From contig JAGAIM010000116.1 of the NCBI GenBank assembly GCA_017626555.1, positions 1 through 64,000 on the forward strand: a stretch of DNA of 64,000 nt. The letters are read 5' to 3'. A program made the translations under genes and the position numbers. This DNA comes from Bacteroidales bacterium (lineage in GTDB: Bacteria; Bacteroidota; Bacteroidia; Bacteroidales; UBA932). The notes under the pieces were generated by a model. It did not search any database. It saw only the letters and a program-made list of their open reading frames with translations, and was not told the DNA's origin. Shown piece by piece: positions 6,740 to 13,608 of this stretch (position 1 is its first letter; each line of letters begins with the position of its first letter).

Positions 6740-6747
6740 TATATTTG
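6740..6747 (+). promoter_or_regulatory. -7 element of the licD cassette
   Basis: TATATTTG, an exact -7 consensus match, ends 13 bp before the licD ATG at 6760. The implied leader is only a few nucleotides, unless translation starts at the in-frame ATGs at 6772 or 6781. Confidence 0.5.
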
Positions 6748-6759
6748 ACAGATTGTATA

Positions 6760-7608
6760 ATGCAAGATCAGATGGCAATGGCTGAAATGATTGACTCAAG
6801 AGATTTTTCCAGATATAACCCCGAGGGATCGGCATTGCGTCGTGACCAGATGGAACTGTTACGGATGCTGGAGAAACTGGCCGGGATATGTGATGCCAAC
6901 GATATCCCTTGGTGGCTCAGTTCCGGGACACTTCTCGGTGCTATACGTCATAAAGGATTCATTCCCTGGGATGATGATGTAGATATTGTGATGTTTCGGG
7001 AGGACTGTCTGAGATTGGAGAAGGTGTTGCTTGAGATGGAAGATGACGAGTATGTGTTCCATTCGAATAAAACCGATCCTGATTATGTGTATGTGTTCGG
7101 TAAATTCCGCAAACGTGATGGAGAATATGAGGTTATGGACCGCAGGAGCGGATATTACAAGTGGAGGGGACTCAGTATTGATATTTTCAGCATTGAAAAG
7201 ACCAGTTATCTTGCGGCTCAGTTGGCACGGTTCTTTTACAAGACGGCTCTCAGGGTGTCACAGAATGTCAAGAACCGCAAGTGGAGACATAGGCTGATAG
7301 CCGCTGCCAACTGGTGGGGTTACAGATGTGTATTCCCTTTCTTCAGATTCATAGGACGCTTGAATCCTAATGGTGAATATCATTATACAATGGGTATAGG
7401 TTGGGCGAAATCAACGTTTTATATGAAGGATATATTGCCTCTTTCACGAGCATCCTTTGAAGGAAGGATGATGCCTGTGCCCAAGGATGCCGATGCATAT
7501 CTGACCAATGTATATGGTGACTGGAGGAAACTCCCATCGGACGCACAGATCAAAAAGGCTATACATAGCCGTGAATACAGGGATGAGATATTCCCGGAAG
7601 ATAAGTAG
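6760..7608 (+). CDS. LicD-family phosphotransferase
   Basis: A 282-aa cytoplasmic or membrane-associated enzyme. Near the N-terminus it carries the LicD hallmark, WWLSSGTLLGAIRHKGFIPW followed by DDDVDI, in which the aspartates bind metal and nucleotide. LicD enzymes move phosphocholine, or a related phospho-alcohol such as phosphoethanolamine, from its CDP-activated form onto a sugar of a teichoic acid, lipooligosaccharide or capsule. This is the first gene of a cassette with a Stealth protein, a GT2, a LicC-like cytidylyltransferase fusion and an opine-type dehydrogenase, so a CDP-linked donor made within the cassette is likely. Three in-frame ATGs (6760, 6772, 6781) are possible starts. 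The identity of the transferred group cannot be read from this gene. Confidence 0.88.
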   Translation: MQDQMAMAEMIDSRDFSRYNPEGSALRRDQMELLRMLEKLAGICDANDIPWWLSSGTLLGAIRHKGFIPWDDDVDIVMFREDCLRLEKVLLEMEDDEYVFHSNKTDPDYVYVFGKFRKRDGEYEVMDRRSGYYKWRGLSIDIFSIEKTSYLAAQLARFFYKTALRVSQNVKNRKWRHRLIAAANWWGYRCVFPFFRFIGRLNPNGEYHYTMGIGWAKSTFYMKDILPLSRASFEGRMMPVPKDADAYLTNVYGDWRKLPSDAQIKKAIHSREYRDEIFPEDK

Positions 7609-7612
7609 AGAA

Positions 7613-8491
7613 ATGGATATTGTCATTACATACGTTGACGGGAACGATCCTGTCTGGAAGAAGGATTACGAGAAATATACTAGTGTCCCGGTTATGGAGA
7701 AGCGTTTCCGTGACTGGGGAACGTTGAAATATCTCCTCAGAGGCATAGAGGTGAATATGCCTTTTATAAGGAATGTATATCTTGTGGTGTCACATCCATC
7801 ACAGGTCCCTGCGTGGGTGAATAGTGAGCAACTTAAAATAGTCCTTCATAAGGATATAATACCGGCAGAGTATCTGCCTACATTCAATTGCAACCCGATC
7901 GAGATGCATCTTCATCGTATAGAGGGACTTGATGAGGAGTATTTATATTTCAATGACGACCTGTATCCTCTTGCAGAATGCCGTCCTGAGGACTTCTTCC
8001 GTGAAGGTAAAGGAGTTCTGGGATTTACGAAGCATTTCTGGGTGTCAGGTATGTATAAGCAAATATGCAGAAATTCTGACAGATTTGCGCGTAAGGCTCT
8101 TGCGATGCCAGCCTCGCCGGTGTTCGTCAGGCCTCAACACACTTGTACACCTATGTTCCGCAGTGAGTGTGAGAGACTTTATTCGATGCTGGAGACTGAT
8201 ATTCTTGGATCCTTGACCAGAACTCGTACGAAGGATAACCTGAATCAATATCTTTTCCTGGATTATCAGTTTTACAAAGGGCGTATTATCAATGAGAAGA
8301 TTTCAAACAAGCATTATTCTGTCGCTCTTGCTTCACCCCAGAGGCTGTCTGCATTCATAATGAATCCGACAAGGAAACTCTTGTGCGTGAATGATGTACA
8401 TCTTGCTGAAGAGCGGTATATGGCTCTTAGGACTGCAATGATAGATGCTTTTGAAAAGAAGTTCCCGGTCAGATCTAGATTTGAAAAATAA
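7613..8491 (+). CDS. Stealth-family sugar-phosphate transferase
   Basis: A 292-aa protein opening with conserved region 1 of Stealth proteins, MDIVITYVDGNDPVW, followed by FRDWGTLKYLLRGIEVN and the region-2 pattern FNCNPIEMHLHRI then YLYFNDDLYPL. Characterised Stealth enzymes are hexose-1-phosphate transferases that build phosphodiester-linked capsule polymers. The ATG at 7613, 4 bp after the licD stop, is chosen because the family starts at this residue, and the open frame upstream only overlaps licD. Together with LicD it implies that the product glycan contains phosphodiester links. The sugar is unknown. Confidence 0.88.
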   Translation: MDIVITYVDGNDPVWKKDYEKYTSVPVMEKRFRDWGTLKYLLRGIEVNMPFIRNVYLVVSHPSQVPAWVNSEQLKIVLHKDIIPAEYLPTFNCNPIEMHLHRIEGLDEEYLYFNDDLYPLAECRPEDFFREGKGVLGFTKHFWVSGMYKQICRNSDRFARKALAMPASPVFVRPQHTCTPMFRSECERLYSMLETDILGSLTRTRTKDNLNQYLFLDYQFYKGRIINEKISNKHYSVALASPQRLSAFIMNPTRKLLCVNDVHLAEERYMALRTAMIDAFEKKFPVRSRFEK

Positions 8492-8492
8492 T

Positions 8493-9446
8493 ATGGATAC
8501 GAATATTACCATATCTCTGGTAATGCCTATATATGGAGTAGAAAAATATATAGGGCGCTTTGCGGAATCTGTTCTGGGACAGACATATCCACATATACAG
8601 TTCGTTTTTGTGAATGATGGTACCAGAGATCGTTCGATCGATATTCTGGAAGGGATTATCGATGAGAAATACGGCCATCTTCGTGACCGTATAGTGATAG
8701 TTCATAAGGAAAACGGCGGGCTTCCGTCTGCGCGTAAGACAGGAATGGAATATGTTCGAGGGGATTATGTCTGGCATATAGATTCGGATGACTGGATCGG
8801 ACAGGATGCGGTGGCGAAGATCGCGATATGTGCAGAGGCTACAGGTGCCGATGTCATCTATTTCGATTTCTACAAGGAATATGAGGGCAGGACAAGACTC
8901 AAGGTCGAGTCTGATTATGCTGATAAGGATAGATATATAAGGGATATGTATAATCACCGGGCATTCGGATGTGTATGGAACAAATGCGTATGCCGGAGAT
9001 TATATCAGGAGAATGAGGTGCATTTCCCGAAATATTCATACGCAGAGGATACGTTTCTGATGTCTCAACTTGTGGGATATGCATCGGGAATGACTCATCT
9101 GAAAGAACCTCTGTATCATTATCGCAAAGACAATCCCCACGCAATAACTAAACAGAAAAGGACAAAAAGGCGTAGAGAGGCTGTGATGAATTTTCTGTCT
9201 CTTTATGAAATATACTCAGATAAACCATTGCAGGATAATCCGGTTCTTCCGATAACGGATGACATATTCTACAGAGCCGGATGGTATTCGCTCATTTATG
9301 GATTCGGCTTTTTCAGAGAATATCCTTATCTCGCTGATAAGATTCTGAAGGCAGAAATCAGGGGCAGGTCTGATATCGGTATTCCGATACAGATTGTACT
9401 GAAAGTATATGCCTTTTTCCGTTGTATGTTAACAATTAAGCATTAA
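8493..9446 (+). CDS. Glycosyltransferase family 2
   Basis: A 317-aa GT-A fold enzyme. Residues 6 onward read SLVMPIYGVEKYIGRFAESV, followed by FVFVNDGTRDRS (nucleotide-sugar binding Asp), GGLPSARKTGME, and the DXD-type metal motif in WHIDSDDW. After about residue 200 there is a less conserved C-terminal helical part (YHYRKDNPHAITKQK) common in capsule GT2 enzymes. The ATG lies 1 bp after the Stealth stop codon. It probably transfers a sugar to a lipid-linked acceptor at the inner membrane. Donor and acceptor are not predictable from sequence alone. Confidence 0.88.
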   Translation: MDTNITISLVMPIYGVEKYIGRFAESVLGQTYPHIQFVFVNDGTRDRSIDILEGIIDEKYGHLRDRIVIVHKENGGLPSARKTGMEYVRGDYVWHIDSDDWIGQDAVAKIAICAEATGADVIYFDFYKEYEGRTRLKVESDYADKDRYIRDMYNHRAFGCVWNKCVCRRLYQENEVHFPKYSYAEDTFLMSQLVGYASGMTHLKEPLYHYRKDNPHAITKQKRTKRRREAVMNFLSLYEIYSDKPLQDNPVLPITDDIFYRAGWYSLIYGFGFFREYPYLADKILKAEIRGRSDIGIPIQIVLKVYAFFRCMLTIKH

Positions 9447-9452
9447 CTGGAT

Positions 9453-11264
9453 ATGCAAGTCGTTATATTGGCCGCAGGTATGGGAAAGCGGCTTGGAGAG
9501 TTGACAAAGGAAAATACGAAATGTATGGTCAAGGTCAATGGTGAGGCATTGATTGACAGGCTTTTAGGACAATTGTCCCGACTTGACCTTACGAGAGTGA
9601 TCATTGTGGTCGGATATGAAGGCGACAAACTGATAAACCATATCGGTGACCGATATTCTGACCGTCTGAAGATCGAGTATGTCACCAATCCGATTTATGA
9701 CAAGACCAACAATATATATTCTCTGGCTCTGACCAAGGATAAACTTCAGGAGGATGACACGCTGCTTATCGAGTCGGATCTCATATTCGATGACAGAATG
9801 TTTTCTCTTCTTCTGGATAATCCGTATCCAAATCTGGCTCTTGTTGCAAAATACTGTACCTGGATGGACGGTACGATGGTCAGGATTGATGATGACTGCA
9901 ATATCGTGAACTTCATCACAAAGAAGGCTTTCAAGTATTCTGATGTGGATTATTACTACAAGACTGTGAATATCTACAAGTTCAGCCGAGACTTCCTTGT
10001 GCATAAGTATATTCCTTTCCTGGATGCGTATTGTTCTGCCTTAGGAAACAATGAGTATTATGAGCAGGTGTTGAGGGTTATCTGTATGCTGGATAATTCG
10101 GAACTGAAGGCTCTGCCGATTTCTGATGAGAAATGGTATGAAATCGATGATGTCCAGGATCTGGATATTGCTGAGGCACTTTTTGCCGATGATGAGCAGC
10201 ATCTCAAGCAATATATGAGGCGCTTCGGCGGATATTGGCGTTTCCCGGATATGCTGGACTATTGCTATCTTGTCAATCCGTATTTCCCTTCGCGCAGACT
10301 GAAGGATGAGATGAGGGCAAATTTCGATTCTCTTCTGACAGAGTATCCGTCCGGAATGTATGTGAATTCATTGCTCGCAGGCAAGTGTTTCGGTGTGAAG
10401 CAGGATTATGTGGTGCCGGGAAATGGAGCGGCAGAACTGATAAAGAGCCTGATGGGGTACCTTAAAGGCCGGATGGGTGTTGTATATCCGACTTTTGAGG
10501 AATATCCTAACAGACGTAGTCAGGATGAATTGGAAATCTTTGTCCCATCATCTGACGGGTTTCGTTATACGGCCGATGATCTGATGTTGTATTTCTCTGA
10601 TCATAAGCCGGATCATATTCTCCTCATTAATCCTGACAATCCGTCTGGAAACTATATTCCATATAAAGATCTCCTTCGTATCGCCGACTGGTGTAAGGAA
10701 AAGAAAATAAGGCTGGTAGTTGATGAATCTTTCGTTGATTTCAGTTCGGAATTCCCGGAATGCTCCTTGTTGCGTGATGATGTTCTGGAGGCGTATCCCG
10801 ATCTGGTTGTCGTAAAGAGCATATCTAAGTCATACGGGGTTCCCGGCCTTCGTCTCGGTATTATGGCAAGTGCTGACAAGGAACTGATATCCTTCCTGAA
10901 GAAGGATGTGGCGATCTGGAATCTGAACTCATTCGCCGAGTTCTTTATGCAGATATATACAAAGCACGAGGCTGATTATATCAAAGCCGCTGAAAAGTTC
11001 CGTGCAGAAAGACTGAGATTCTGGGAGGATCTGGATGCCATACCATATCTGAAAGTATATCCTAGTCAGGCCAATTATTTCCTTTGTGAGGTACATTCTC
11101 CTTACTCGTCATATAATCTTGCTGTTGATTTGCTGAAGGAACATAATATCCTGATAAAGGACTGCAGCGGTAAAAAGGCTTTCGGAGGAAAGAATTTCAT
11201 AAGGATAGCAATCCGATCCCGAGAAGACAATGTCAGGTTGGTTGAAGCACTTAAATCGTTGTAG
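9453..11264 (+). CDS. Bifunctional LicC-like nucleotidyltransferase / fold-type I PLP enzyme
   Basis: A 603-aa fusion. Residues 1 to about 235 are a nucleotidyltransferase: VILAAGMGKRLGELTKENTK, then the KVNGEALIDR lysine region, LIESDLIFDD for metal binding, and WYEIDDVQDL near the domain end, the layout of LicC-type CTP:phosphocholine cytidylyltransferases. Residues about 255-603 are an aminotransferase class I/II domain: NPDNPSGN, VVDESFVDF (pyridine-binding Asp424) and SISKSYGVPGLRLG (Schiff-base Lys459). The PLP part resembles HisC and CobD equally well to my eye. CobD-like relatives decarboxylate phosphothreonine or phosphoserine, so one protein could make phosphoethanolamine and activate it as CDP-ethanolamine. 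That is inference. Transamination is the alternative. It starts 6 bp after the GT2 gene. Confidence 0.85.
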   Translation: MQVVILAAGMGKRLGELTKENTKCMVKVNGEALIDRLLGQLSRLDLTRVIIVVGYEGDKLINHIGDRYSDRLKIEYVTNPIYDKTNNIYSLALTKDKLQEDDTLLIESDLIFDDRMFSLLLDNPYPNLALVAKYCTWMDGTMVRIDDDCNIVNFITKKAFKYSDVDYYYKTVNIYKFSRDFLVHKYIPFLDAYCSALGNNEYYEQVLRVICMLDNSELKALPISDEKWYEIDDVQDLDIAEALFADDEQHLKQYMRRFGGYWRFPDMLDYCYLVNPYFPSRRLKDEMRANFDSLLTEYPSGMYVNSLLAGKCFGVKQDYVVPGNGAAELIKSLMGYLKGRMGVVYPTFEEYPNRRSQDELEIFVPSSDGFRYTADDLMLYFSDHKPDHILLINPDNPSGNYIPYKDLLRIADWCKEKKIRLVVDESFVDFSSEFPECSLLRDDVLEAYPDLVVVKSISKSYGVPGLRLGIMASADKELISFLKKDVAIWNLNSFAEFFMQIYTKHEADYIKAAEKFRAERLRFWEDLDAIPYLKVYPSQANYFLCEVHSPYSSYNLAVDLLKEHNILIKDCSGKKAFGGKNFIRIAIRSREDNVRLVEALKSL

Positions 11265-11265
11265 G

Positions 11266-12291
11266 ATGAAGAGGATATGTATATGTGGCGGAGGATCTTT
11301 GGGACACGTGATTGCAGGATGGCTCTCTGCAAAAGGAAAGGCTGAGGTCAGTGTGTTGACAGGTCGTCCGGACAGATGGAGCCCTGCCGTGACAATTGCA
11401 TTGCCGGATTCAGGAACTATTACGGGTCATCTTGAAACAATAAGTGGAGATCCCTCGGACGTGATTCCTTCCGCAGATGTTGTTTTGTTCTGTTATCCTG
11501 GCTTTATGATAGCCTCGGAACTGGAAAGGATAATGCCATATCTGCGTCCGGATACATTTGTGGGCAGCGTTTTTTCTTCGACCGGCTTTTTCTTTGAAGC
11601 CTTGAAGAGGCTTCCCTCCGGTCAGCCCCTGTGGGGGTTCCAGAGGGTCCCTTTCATCTGCAGAGTAAATGAATATGGCTGTTCGGCCAATCTTCTCGGC
11701 TATAAACCTTGCTATCATATTGCAGTTGAGAATATCCCGGAGACTGATAAAAAGAAATTCGCTGCAATGATATCCGATTGGTTTGAAAGACCTGTGCATT
11801 TGCTGAGAAACTATTATGAGGCGAGTCTGACCAACAGCAATCCTCTTCTGCATACGTCAAGATTATATACAATGTTCGGCGGTGAGAATGAAGGAAGGGC
11901 TTATCCTCAGATGATCAATTTCTATGAAGATTGGACAGTAGAGGCATCGGAGGTGCTTATAAAGATGGATCAGGAATTTTTCGACCTGTTGAAGGTGCTG
12001 CCGGTAGGAGAGGACTACCTTCCGACTATACTTGATTATTATGAAAGCCGTGATGCAGAGTCTTTGACCAATAAGTTGTCTTCTATATCTGGATTCAAGG
12101 GTATCACTTCTCCGATGATTCAGACCGACAGAGGCTGGATTCCAGATTATAAAAGCCGATATTTTACTGAAGACTTTCCGTATGGATTGAAGTATATCTG
12201 GATGCTTGCTCACGAAAATGATATCTCCGTCCCGATGATAGATAAGGTATATGAGTGGGGGATTTCCAAATTGGAAAGTCTGGATGTGTAA
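11266..12291 (+). CDS. Octopine/nopaline (opine) dehydrogenase-family protein
   Basis: A 341-aa protein. It begins with a Rossmann dinucleotide-binding segment, RICICGGGSLGHVIAGWLSA, continues with VVLFCYPGFMIASELERI and WGFQRVPFICRV, and ends in an all-helical C-terminal domain containing NSNPLLHTSRLYTMFGG, where family members place the catalytic His. This is the NAD(P) octopine/nopaline dehydrogenase architecture, enzymes that reductively join an amine to a 2-oxo acid. The ATG is 1 bp after the stop of the fusion gene, so it is the last member of the cassette. In this context it could N-carboxyalkylate the amine made by the PLP enzyme (inference). A bidirectional terminator follows. Confidence 0.82.
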   Translation: MKRICICGGGSLGHVIAGWLSAKGKAEVSVLTGRPDRWSPAVTIALPDSGTITGHLETISGDPSDVIPSADVVLFCYPGFMIASELERIMPYLRPDTFVGSVFSSTGFFFEALKRLPSGQPLWGFQRVPFICRVNEYGCSANLLGYKPCYHIAVENIPETDKKKFAAMISDWFERPVHLLRNYYEASLTNSNPLLHTSRLYTMFGGENEGRAYPQMINFYEDWTVEASEVLIKMDQEFFDLLKVLPVGEDYLPTILDYYESRDAESLTNKLSSISGFKGITSPMIQTDRGWIPDYKSRYFTEDFPYGLKYIWMLAHENDISVPMIDKVYEWGISKLESLDV

Positions 12292-12312
12292 TTAACCTAT
12301 AATATATATAAG

Positions 12313-12343
12313 AAATCGCCTGCGTCACTGACGCAGGCGATTT
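12313..12343. terminator. Bidirectional intrinsic terminator between the lic cassette and nqrF
   Basis: A near-perfect palindrome (15-bp arms 12313-12327 and 12329-12343, GC-rich centre CGCCTGCGTCA) is flanked by AAA on the left and TTT on the right. It sits between two convergent genes. Confidence 0.8.
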
Positions 12344-12348
12344 GAGTA

Positions 12349-13608
12349 TTACGCTCCGAAGTTGTCGTAAAGGATGTTCTCCGGTGGTACTCCGAGTGAG
12401 TCTAGGAGGTTTACAACCGCTCCGACCATCATAGGAGGTCCGCACATAAGGTAGAGTGCATCCTCTGGATTCTCGTGCTGCTTGAGATAAGTCTCGAACA
12501 TAACGTTGTGTACGAAACCAGCAACGTATGGTACGCCTGCTGCATCAGCCTCAGGATCCGGTCTGTCAAGTGCGAGGTGGAACTTGAAGTTAGGGAATTC
12601 CTTCTCGATTGCGTGATAGTCATCGAGGTAGAAGGCCTCCTTAAGCGCACGTGCACCATAGAAGAAGTTCACCTTGCGGTCTGTCTTCTCTGTCTTGAAG
12701 AGATGCATAATGTGGCTTCTCATAGGAGCCATACCTGCACCACCACCGACGAAGATCAGTTCGGTCTCTGGTGAAAGATCCTTTGGAAGGAAGAACTCAC
12801 CGTAAGGACCTGAGATTGTGATCTTGTCACCTGGCTTGAGAGAGTAGATGTATGAAGAACAGATACCAGGGTTCACATCAACCCACTTGCCCGCAGCCCT
12901 GTCGAATGGAGGAGTTGCGATACGTACGTTGAGTTTGATAATGTCACCCTCTGCAGGGTAGCAGGCCATCGAGTATGCACGTACGGTAGGGGTCGGGTTG
13001 ACCATCTTGAGAGTCCTGAGACCCATTTTCTCCCAATCTGCCTGATACTGCTCGTCAACGTCGATATCCTTGTAGTCAACAGTAACAGCAGGTACGTCGA
13101 TCTGGATATATCCACCAGACTGGAAGTTGAGGTGCTCTCCCTCCGGAAGTTTCACCACAAATTCCTTGATGAATGTAGCCACGTTGTGGTTAGAAACCAC
13201 CTCGCACTCCCACTTCTTCACGCTGAGAGCAGAAGCAGGTACCTCGATAGACATATCTTCCTTGATCTTTACCTGACATCCCAGACGCCAGTTGTTTGCG
13301 ATCTGCTTGCGGTTGAAGAAACCGACCTCAGTAGGAAGGATCTCTCCGCCACCCTCGGTCACACGGCACTTGCACTGTCCGCAGGCTCCCTTACCACCAC
13401 AGGCTGAAGGAAGGAAAATCTTCTGTTCTGCGAGGGTTGAGAGAAGGTTTCCGCCAGGGGTTACCTCGACGATCTTGCTTCCCTCGTTGATGTTGATCTT
13501 AACTGTTCCTGAAGGTGTCAACTTCGTCTTGATGAAGAGGAGAAGCGCCACCAGAATGAGTGTGACGATCACGAAGACAATCACAGCAAAAAGTATTGTT
13601 TGTGTCAT
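12349..13608 (-). CDS. nqrF: Na+-translocating NADH:quinone reductase subunit F
   Basis: A 419-aa subunit that takes electrons from NADH into the Na+-NQR complex. It has an N-terminal membrane anchor (residues 3-26), then a 2Fe-2S ferredoxin domain with Cys70, Cys76 and Cys79 in CGGKGACGQC and a fourth candidate Cys at 111. The FAD-binding domain contains RAYSMACYP and the NADH-binding domain GGGAGMAPMRSH. Full length for the family. Last gene of the six-gene nqr operon, 17 bp after nqrE, and followed by the terminator at 12313-12343. Confidence 0.97.
   Translation of the reverse strand: MTQTILFAVIVFVIVTLILVALLLFIKTKLTPSGTVKININEGSKIVEVTPGGNLLSTLAEQKIFLPSACGGKGACGQCKCRVTEGGGEILPTEVGFFNRKQIANNWRLGCQVKIKEDMSIEVPASALSVKKWECEVVSNHNVATFIKEFVVKLPEGEHLNFQSGGYIQIDVPAVTVDYKDIDVDEQYQADWEKMGLRTLKMVNPTPTVRAYSMACYPAEGDIIKLNVRIATPPFDRAAGKWVDVNPGICSSYIYSLKPGDKITISGPYGEFFLPKDLSPETELIFVGGGAGMAPMRSHIMHLFKTEKTDRKVNFFYGARALKEAFYLDDYHAIEKEFPNFKFHLALDRPDPEADAAGVPYVAGFVHNVMFETYLKQHENPEDALYLMCGPPMMVGAVVNLLDSLGVPPENILYDNFGA

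Follow-up and report, generated by a model that had tools for sequence, protein, structure and literature searches.

In the Lic pathway (LicA-LicD) of Streptococcus pneumoniae and Haemophilus influenzae, a LicC-type cytidylyltransferase works with LicD, which transfers a phospho-amine to a glycan. The Pnt pathway of Treponema denticola fuses an N-terminal LicC-like domain to the pyridoxal phosphate (PLP) enzyme of its amine substrate, an aminoethylphosphonate transaminase (PntC-AEPT; structures 6pd1 and 6pd2), with LicD-like transferases nearby (PMC6697681). A more elaborate group, N-[(R)-1-carboxyethyl]ethanolamine phosphate (R-Cet-EtnP), is described in PMC9630907 as a substituent of the Proteus mirabilis O-polysaccharide. 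We found no genes for carboxyethyl-ethanolamine phosphate in the literature searched; PMC8657804 and PMC6801904, in the portions consulted, concern other groups. Here we describe a gene cassette that may supply such a route. It lies in a 64,000-nucleotide stretch of a gut Bacteroidales bacterium (positions 1 to 64,000 of contig JAGAIM010000116.1, assembly GCA_017626555.1), which we call the window. The window lies on contig C60 of its genome, which is assembled to 3.09 Mb in 222 contigs and ~95% complete.

The cassette consists of five genes on the + strand (6745-12291), back to back with intergenic gaps of 4, 1, 6 and 1 bp, as an earlier sequence-only reading of this DNA had said in giving gaps of 1-6 bp. 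The Pfam domains agree and all exceed their curated cut-offs: LicD, Stealth CR2, Glycos_transf_2, NTP_transf_3 together with Aminotran_1_2, and Octopine_DH. We refer to the two-domain protein as the LicC-CobD fusion and to the octopine-dehydrogenase-family reductase as ODH. From sequence, we put a probability of roughly 0.65 on the reading that the cassette makes an opine-type phosphoethanolamine and attaches it to a surface glycan. The CobD-like half of the fusion would decarboxylate L-phosphoserine to phosphoethanolamine, which the LicC-like half would convert with cytidine triphosphate (CTP) to cytidine diphosphate (CDP)-ethanolamine. ODH would join the amine of the 2-aminoethyl phosphate to a 2-oxo acid, of which pyruvate is the likeliest, and reduce the imine to an N-(1-carboxyalkyl) derivative, probably on the CDP intermediate or in the course of transfer. 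LicD would then move the phospho-amine from cytidine monophosphate (CMP) to the glycan, and the Stealth and family 2 glycosyltransferase (GT2) proteins may help build or decorate the acceptor in the window's lineage. We infer the substrates, products and order of these steps; what we observe is the set of genes, their conservation and that of individual residues, the fusion of domains and the replacement of one reductase by another. With pyruvate as keto acid and an R configuration at the new centre, the predicted product would be the R-Cet-EtnP of P. mirabilis, a group that the sequence-only reading had rightly named as known from Proteus O-antigens. Unlike the Lic pathway, the cassette has no choline kinase among its five genes; a decarboxylase is the predicted source of its amine phosphate, and a reductase is added.

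To learn which of these genes belong together, we scanned an alignment of six ODHs against the genome_contigs collection and kept the best 80 of 400 relatives as ODH loci, of which 59 are at least 14 kb long. Going by their record titles, these are Bacteroidales genomes and metagenome-assembled genomes (MAGs), with ruminants and horses the source of many; Prevotella ruminicola KHT3 and Prevotella sp. tf2-5 and P5-50 are named isolates among them. In 72 of the 80 loci ODH has LicC and CobD domains of more than 45% identity next to it, 70 times on the same strand, a recurrence of the pair that goes beyond chance. The gap between fusion and ODH, taken from tblastn ends, has a median of 14 bp and is at most 60 bp in 69 of the 72, and the two domains form a single full-length frame in all of them except L067, in which one frame was not recovered (71/72). 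A full-length fusion lies elsewhere in six of the remaining eight ODH genomes. In L032 the CobD half alone adjoins ODH, and L082 (G256) is without the fusion, having only LicC-like and PLP genes side by side at 27-29% identity.

LicD is present in 62 of the 80 loci and adjoins the block in 47. A single open frame holds both ODH and LicD in 14 of the loci (the domains are shown for L082) and in G102, a genome of the window's family; in G033 and G234, of the same genus as G102, they are two overlapping genes, and G234 has a compact fusion-ODH-LicD run. No fusion of ODH to LicC or to CobD occurs among the ODH loci examined. Stealth is found in three of the 80 loci and GT2 relatives of at least 45% identity in two (L027 and L028, with matches below 80 bits dropped), the same two that keep the full five-gene order; G037 (L126) carries the same cassette minus ODH. 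The five-family grouping of the sequence-only reading therefore stands in part: the fusion-ODH pair and the shared ODH-LicD frames recur, Stealth and GT2 rarely do, and we reject the five genes as a conserved unit. The conserved core has three parts, the LicC-CobD fusion, ODH and LicD, and Stealth and GT2 are local extras. One locus, L103, comes from a MAG labelled uncultured Fibrobacter; its fusion and ODH are 52-74% identical to the window's and its LicD 35%, which reflects either cross-phylum transfer or a misbinned contig.

A survey centred on the fusion gave a complementary view. Of the 249 genomes in the family sample, 12 carry the fusion (cut by contig ends in G026 and G033), as do 13 of 393 in the order sample (split by a stop in G519), and among the 395 genomes of the phylum sample it occurs solely in the window's own, for 23 distinct fusion genomes in all. 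Ten of these contain ODH, adjacent or split off by a contig end in seven (G000, G026, G033, G234, G273, G297 and G519, with G297 at 35-37% identity) and unlinked in three (G188, G546 and G448). In eight, a protein of the ornithine-cyclodeaminase/mu-crystallin family (OCD) lies directly downstream, in ODH's position; PF02423 was confirmed in all four of these that were scanned. Full ODH and OCD never occur together in the 23 genomes, a mutual exclusion with p 0.0026 under independence, uncorrected for kinship. In the family sample, fusion (12 genomes) and ODH (8 genomes) coincide in 5 of 249 (p 5e-6), a count that leaves out four weaker or fragmentary ODH matches.

The distribution of OCD on a tree of 42 fusions is scattered. 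On this quick tree, for which 20 of the ODH-adjacent rows and the window were taken and L171 and L172 omitted, the OCD label needs at least five changes, and a single clade of OCD-linked fusions is rejected (approximately unbiased (AU) test, p 9e-6). We conclude that the reductase has changed repeatedly. A second quick tree has 97 rows, without L067, L173, L134, L017 and L018 (no single frame or contig-cut); in both trees L167 and L168 are labelled 'none', though ODH is present, unlinked, in G546 and G448; the OCD result is unaffected. The OCD-bearing genome G024 also contains a 46-residue ODH-like fragment (L024:8182-8316), a possible trace of a reductase swap.

OCD also appears in a phosphonate setting. 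At E 1e-25, 5 of the 393 order genomes contain it, three of them behind the fusion. In G492 (65% complete), OCD and two neighboring LicD genes lie where a contig ends. In G482 (L195) it lies directly behind a PntC-AEPT fusion, with phosphoenolpyruvate (PEP) mutase and phosphonopyruvate decarboxylase in front, and all three of these proteins exceed NCBIfam equivalog cut-offs. Given that OCD stands both behind the LicC-CobD fusion and behind PntC-AEPT, the shared substrate would most simply be a CMP-activated 2-aminoethyl phosphate or phosphonate. The solved relatives of OCD include alanine dehydrogenase, pyrroline-2-carboxylate reductase and iminosuccinate reductase, enzymes that reduce alpha-imino acids. 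On the simplest view, both reductases would condense the 2-aminoethyl amine with a 2-oxo acid, perhaps differing in product stereochemistry or keto acid. The transferase may vary as well: in L127 and L171 a CDP-alcohol phosphotransferase (PF01066) follows the reductase, and LicD was not found in either locus. To a broader proposal, a modular 'opine-phosphate' surface code in Bacteroidales, we would give somewhat less than even odds. Here either of two unrelated reductases, each excluding the other, would N-carboxyalkylate a CMP-activated 2-aminoethyl phosphate or phosphonate, and LicD or a CDP-alcohol phosphotransferase would then transfer the product. If this is true, part swaps would change the antigen with the glycan backbone untouched.

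The residues of the fusion bear on what it activates. All 97 fusions compared agree at the 13 positions tested in the LicC half, R13, K23, E107 and D109 among them, regardless of the accompanying reductase. R13, K23 and D109 supply the Arg/Lys of the nucleotidyltransferase and the metal-binding Asp of a Lic-type cytidylyltransferase; LicC (1jyk) is the top match, and PntC (6pd1) is likewise among the best solved relatives. We favor reduction after activation, since the LicC residues are the same whether the fusion comes with ODH, OCD or neither, and since ODH is found fused to LicD and not to the activator. Fusion Glu107 aligns with T. denticola PntC Glu104, one of two glutamates positioned to bind the amine of 2-aminoethylphosphonate according to PMC6697681, which gives Asp105 as the S. 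pneumoniae LicC counterpart; in this respect the fusion differs from S. pneumoniae LicC. That glutamate, the general resemblance to PntC and the PntC-like architecture of a cytidylyltransferase joined to a PLP enzyme (PMC6697681) are what a Pnt-kind pathway for 2-aminoethylphosphonate decoration would have. Such a pathway is nonetheless very improbable here. The PLP half is of the CobD-like, class I/II kind, whereas that of T. denticola is a class V aminotransferase, and no PEP mutase over the cut-off was found in the window's ~95% complete assembly, with one present in only 1 of 26 genomes searched. We reject the phosphonate reading for the window's genome on the missing PEP mutase and predict a phosphate ester instead.

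The PLP half had been called CobD/HisC-like, and a profile search against the Protein Data Bank (PDB) agrees: 6oux ranks first (214 bits), followed by 3ftb (164), CobD 1lc5 (144) and HisC 8bj1 (121). The deposited name of 6oux is the name given to SMUL_1544 of Sulfurospirillum multivorans, which serves norcobamide synthesis, as the title of the cited work has it; in contrast to SMUL_1544, the PLP half here is fused to a cytidylyltransferase. An active-site comparison over five chains places the WNxN motif of the PLP half with 6oux (WNIN), 3ftb (WNIN) and 1lc5 (WSVN), against YNVS in the HisC chains 8bj1 and 8bj4. 3ftb was deposited as HisC, yet it carries the CobD-type WNIN and outscores CobD against the PLP half. 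The half thus has both the CobD-type W-x-x-N and the PLP lysine. A plain HisC label is rejected on the first rank of 6oux and the lower scores and different motif of the HisC chains, and a housekeeping CobD is unlikely: the half is the best match to TIGR01140 in the genome, yet it is far under the cut-off and fused. Judged by these comparisons, it is a CobD relative, not CobD itself. PLP Lys459 is kept in 96 of 97 fusions. The exception, G041 (L129:7659-9479), comes from a genome with neither reductase; Ser replaces the lysine, the tested LicC residues are intact, and the decarboxylase half is probably inactive.

CobD of cobalamin synthesis is a phosphothreonine decarboxylase, and SMUL_1544 acts on phosphoserine. 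With both CobD and HisC among its homologues, and a deposited HisC outscoring CobD, the PLP half might instead take phosphothreonine as its substrate, or work as an aminotransferase of a phospho-aldehyde, giving 1-amino-2-propanol phosphate or another aminoalkyl phosphate and leaving the rest of the pathway unchanged. We think this quite unlikely, given that the nearest solved relative bears the name of the norcobamide enzyme and that OCD behind an aminoethylphosphonate activator points to a 2-aminoethyl group.

ODH belongs to the octopine-dehydrogenase family, as had been proposed, with PF02317 over its cut-off and the active-site His, Arg and Asp in place. Its His196, Arg298 and Asp303 correspond to His212, Arg324 and Asp329 of Pecten maximus octopine dehydrogenase (OcDH; 3c7a and 3iqd) and are invariant in 26 of 26 aligned sequences; Arg324 and Asp329 have established roles in OcDH. 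The substrate pocket is different. In OcDH, Glu142 holds the guanidinium of arginine and Gln118 binds the carboxylate of pyruvate, as stated in PMC6033044. The Glu142 position is Gln126 in ODH, beside a new invariant Arg127, and Arg199 is likewise new and invariant; these changes fit a phosphate-ended substrate. Gln118, Met206 and Tyr208 are also replaced, and ODH sits in a surface-glycan-tailoring setting.

Several observations weigh against the opine-type phosphoethanolamine pathway. OcDH Gln118 aligns with Ser105 of ODH, so the pyruvate contact is lost and the keto acid is not assured to be pyruvate. The second amine contact of T. denticola PntC, Glu196, aligns with Tyr203 of the fusion, and the PLP half scores 177.4 bits against a TIGR01140 CobD equivalog cut-off of 290.55. 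LicD was not seen in 18 of the 80 ODH loci, some of them short. Five of the 23 fusion genomes have neither reductase (G037, G041, G539, G356 and G405), and the fusion is missing from two of the five order-sample genomes with OCD and from three of the eight family-sample genomes with ODH (G227, G182 and G102, the last on a contig that ends at ODH). For OCD, the solved relatives also include ornithine and lysine cyclodeaminases, and the two OCDs scanned fall far under the NCBIfam cut-offs compared.

Two of the ODH genomes without the fusion have other cytidylyltransferases. In the same-genus genome G227 (L016:8927-10480, - strand), ODH is followed by LicC, an amidohydrolase, a LicC-kinase fusion (NTP_transf_3 with APH/Choline_kinase) and two LicD genes; here a kinase may replace the decarboxylase as the source of the amine phosphate. 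In G182 (L022:12154-15014), ODH is followed by an amino-acid permease, hinting at uptake of the amine substrate, and by a stand-alone PntC-like cytidylyltransferase (41% identical to the L195 PntC-AEPT).

The genomes with neither reductase imply that the fusion can work alone, which would suit a division of labor in which fusion and LicD add plain phosphoethanolamine, while the product of ODH or OCD is a separate amino acid of opine type, such as carboxyethyl-lysine, that is attached elsewhere on the same glycan. ODH-family proteins do occur apart from the fusion: L023, L025 and L026 are polysaccharide-type loci with distant relatives (21-23% identity) and no LicC-CobD match, and these relatives perhaps make other N-carboxyalkyl groups. 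We consider the division unlikely, however, in view of the single ODH-LicD frames, the loss of OcDH Glu142 and gain of Arg127 in ODH, and the position of OCD behind PntC-AEPT; in addition, no ligase or amidation gene was recognized by eye in the compact run of G234.

The comparison with known systems suggests that the cassette is a variant of the Lic/Pnt surface-tailoring pathways that joins opine chemistry to their logic. In the titles and abstract openings of the open-access papers listed we found no described pathway linking LicD, carboxyethyl-ethanolamine or aminoethylphosphonate to an opine dehydrogenase or ornithine cyclodeaminase; with a search confined to open-access work, novelty is unproven. 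The cassette would give a concrete enzyme route to N-carboxyalkyl phosphoethanolamine, known as chemistry and without genes in the literature searched. With two unrelated reductases in one operon position, the amine and keto-acid step is directly testable with few purified proteins. Carried on the cell surface of Prevotella and its relatives, often of ruminant or horse origin by their record titles, the predicted groups could be encountered by lectins, antibodies and phages.

Features of the cassette and its borders, in window coordinates
Feature	Position	Strand	Evidence
Bacteroidetes-type -7 promoter-like element TATATTTG	6740..6747	+	sequence and regex; no -33 TTG 18-22 bp upstream
LicD-family phosphotransferase	6760..7608	+	PF04991 131 bits, cut-off 22.6
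Stealth-family protein (accessory, not core)	7613..8491	+	PF11380 110 bits
GT2 glycosyltransferase (accessory, not core)	8493..9446	+	PF00535 92 bits
LicC-CobD fusion gene, 603 aa	9453..11264	+	cytidylyltransferase and PLP domains
LicC/PntC-like cytidylyltransferase domain of fusion	9453..10190	+	PF12804; nearest solved relatives 1jyk LicC, 6pd1 PntC
CobD-like PLP domain of fusion, predicted phosphoserine decarboxylase	10203..11261	+	PLP Lys459, WNxN 489-492
ODH, 341 aa, predicted 2-aminoethyl phosphate N-carboxyalkylation	11266..12291	+	PF02317 104 bits, cut-off 30
Hairpin between convergent transcription units, likely terminator	12313..12343	.	fold of 12292-12360 -26.7 kcal/mol, z -6.5

The proposal of a single promoter is half sustained: an element resembling the Bacteroidetes -7 consensus precedes the cassette, but a regex search found no -33 TTG in the expected interval. 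The start of LicD is ambiguous, with in-frame ATGs at 6760, 6772, 6778 and 6787 and a further possible start at TTG 6745; it is the sole LicD gene found in the window's genome. The Stealth protein is presumably of the hexose-phosphate transferase type. Beyond the hairpin lies a convergent minus-strand gene (12349-13608) that we take to encode NqrF. nqrF is found beside or within ~7 kb of such cassettes in the window, in L027 and L028 (97% NqrF identity) and in L016, L085 and L128 (68-73%), and its neighborhood is possibly a recurrent site for surface-glycan genes.

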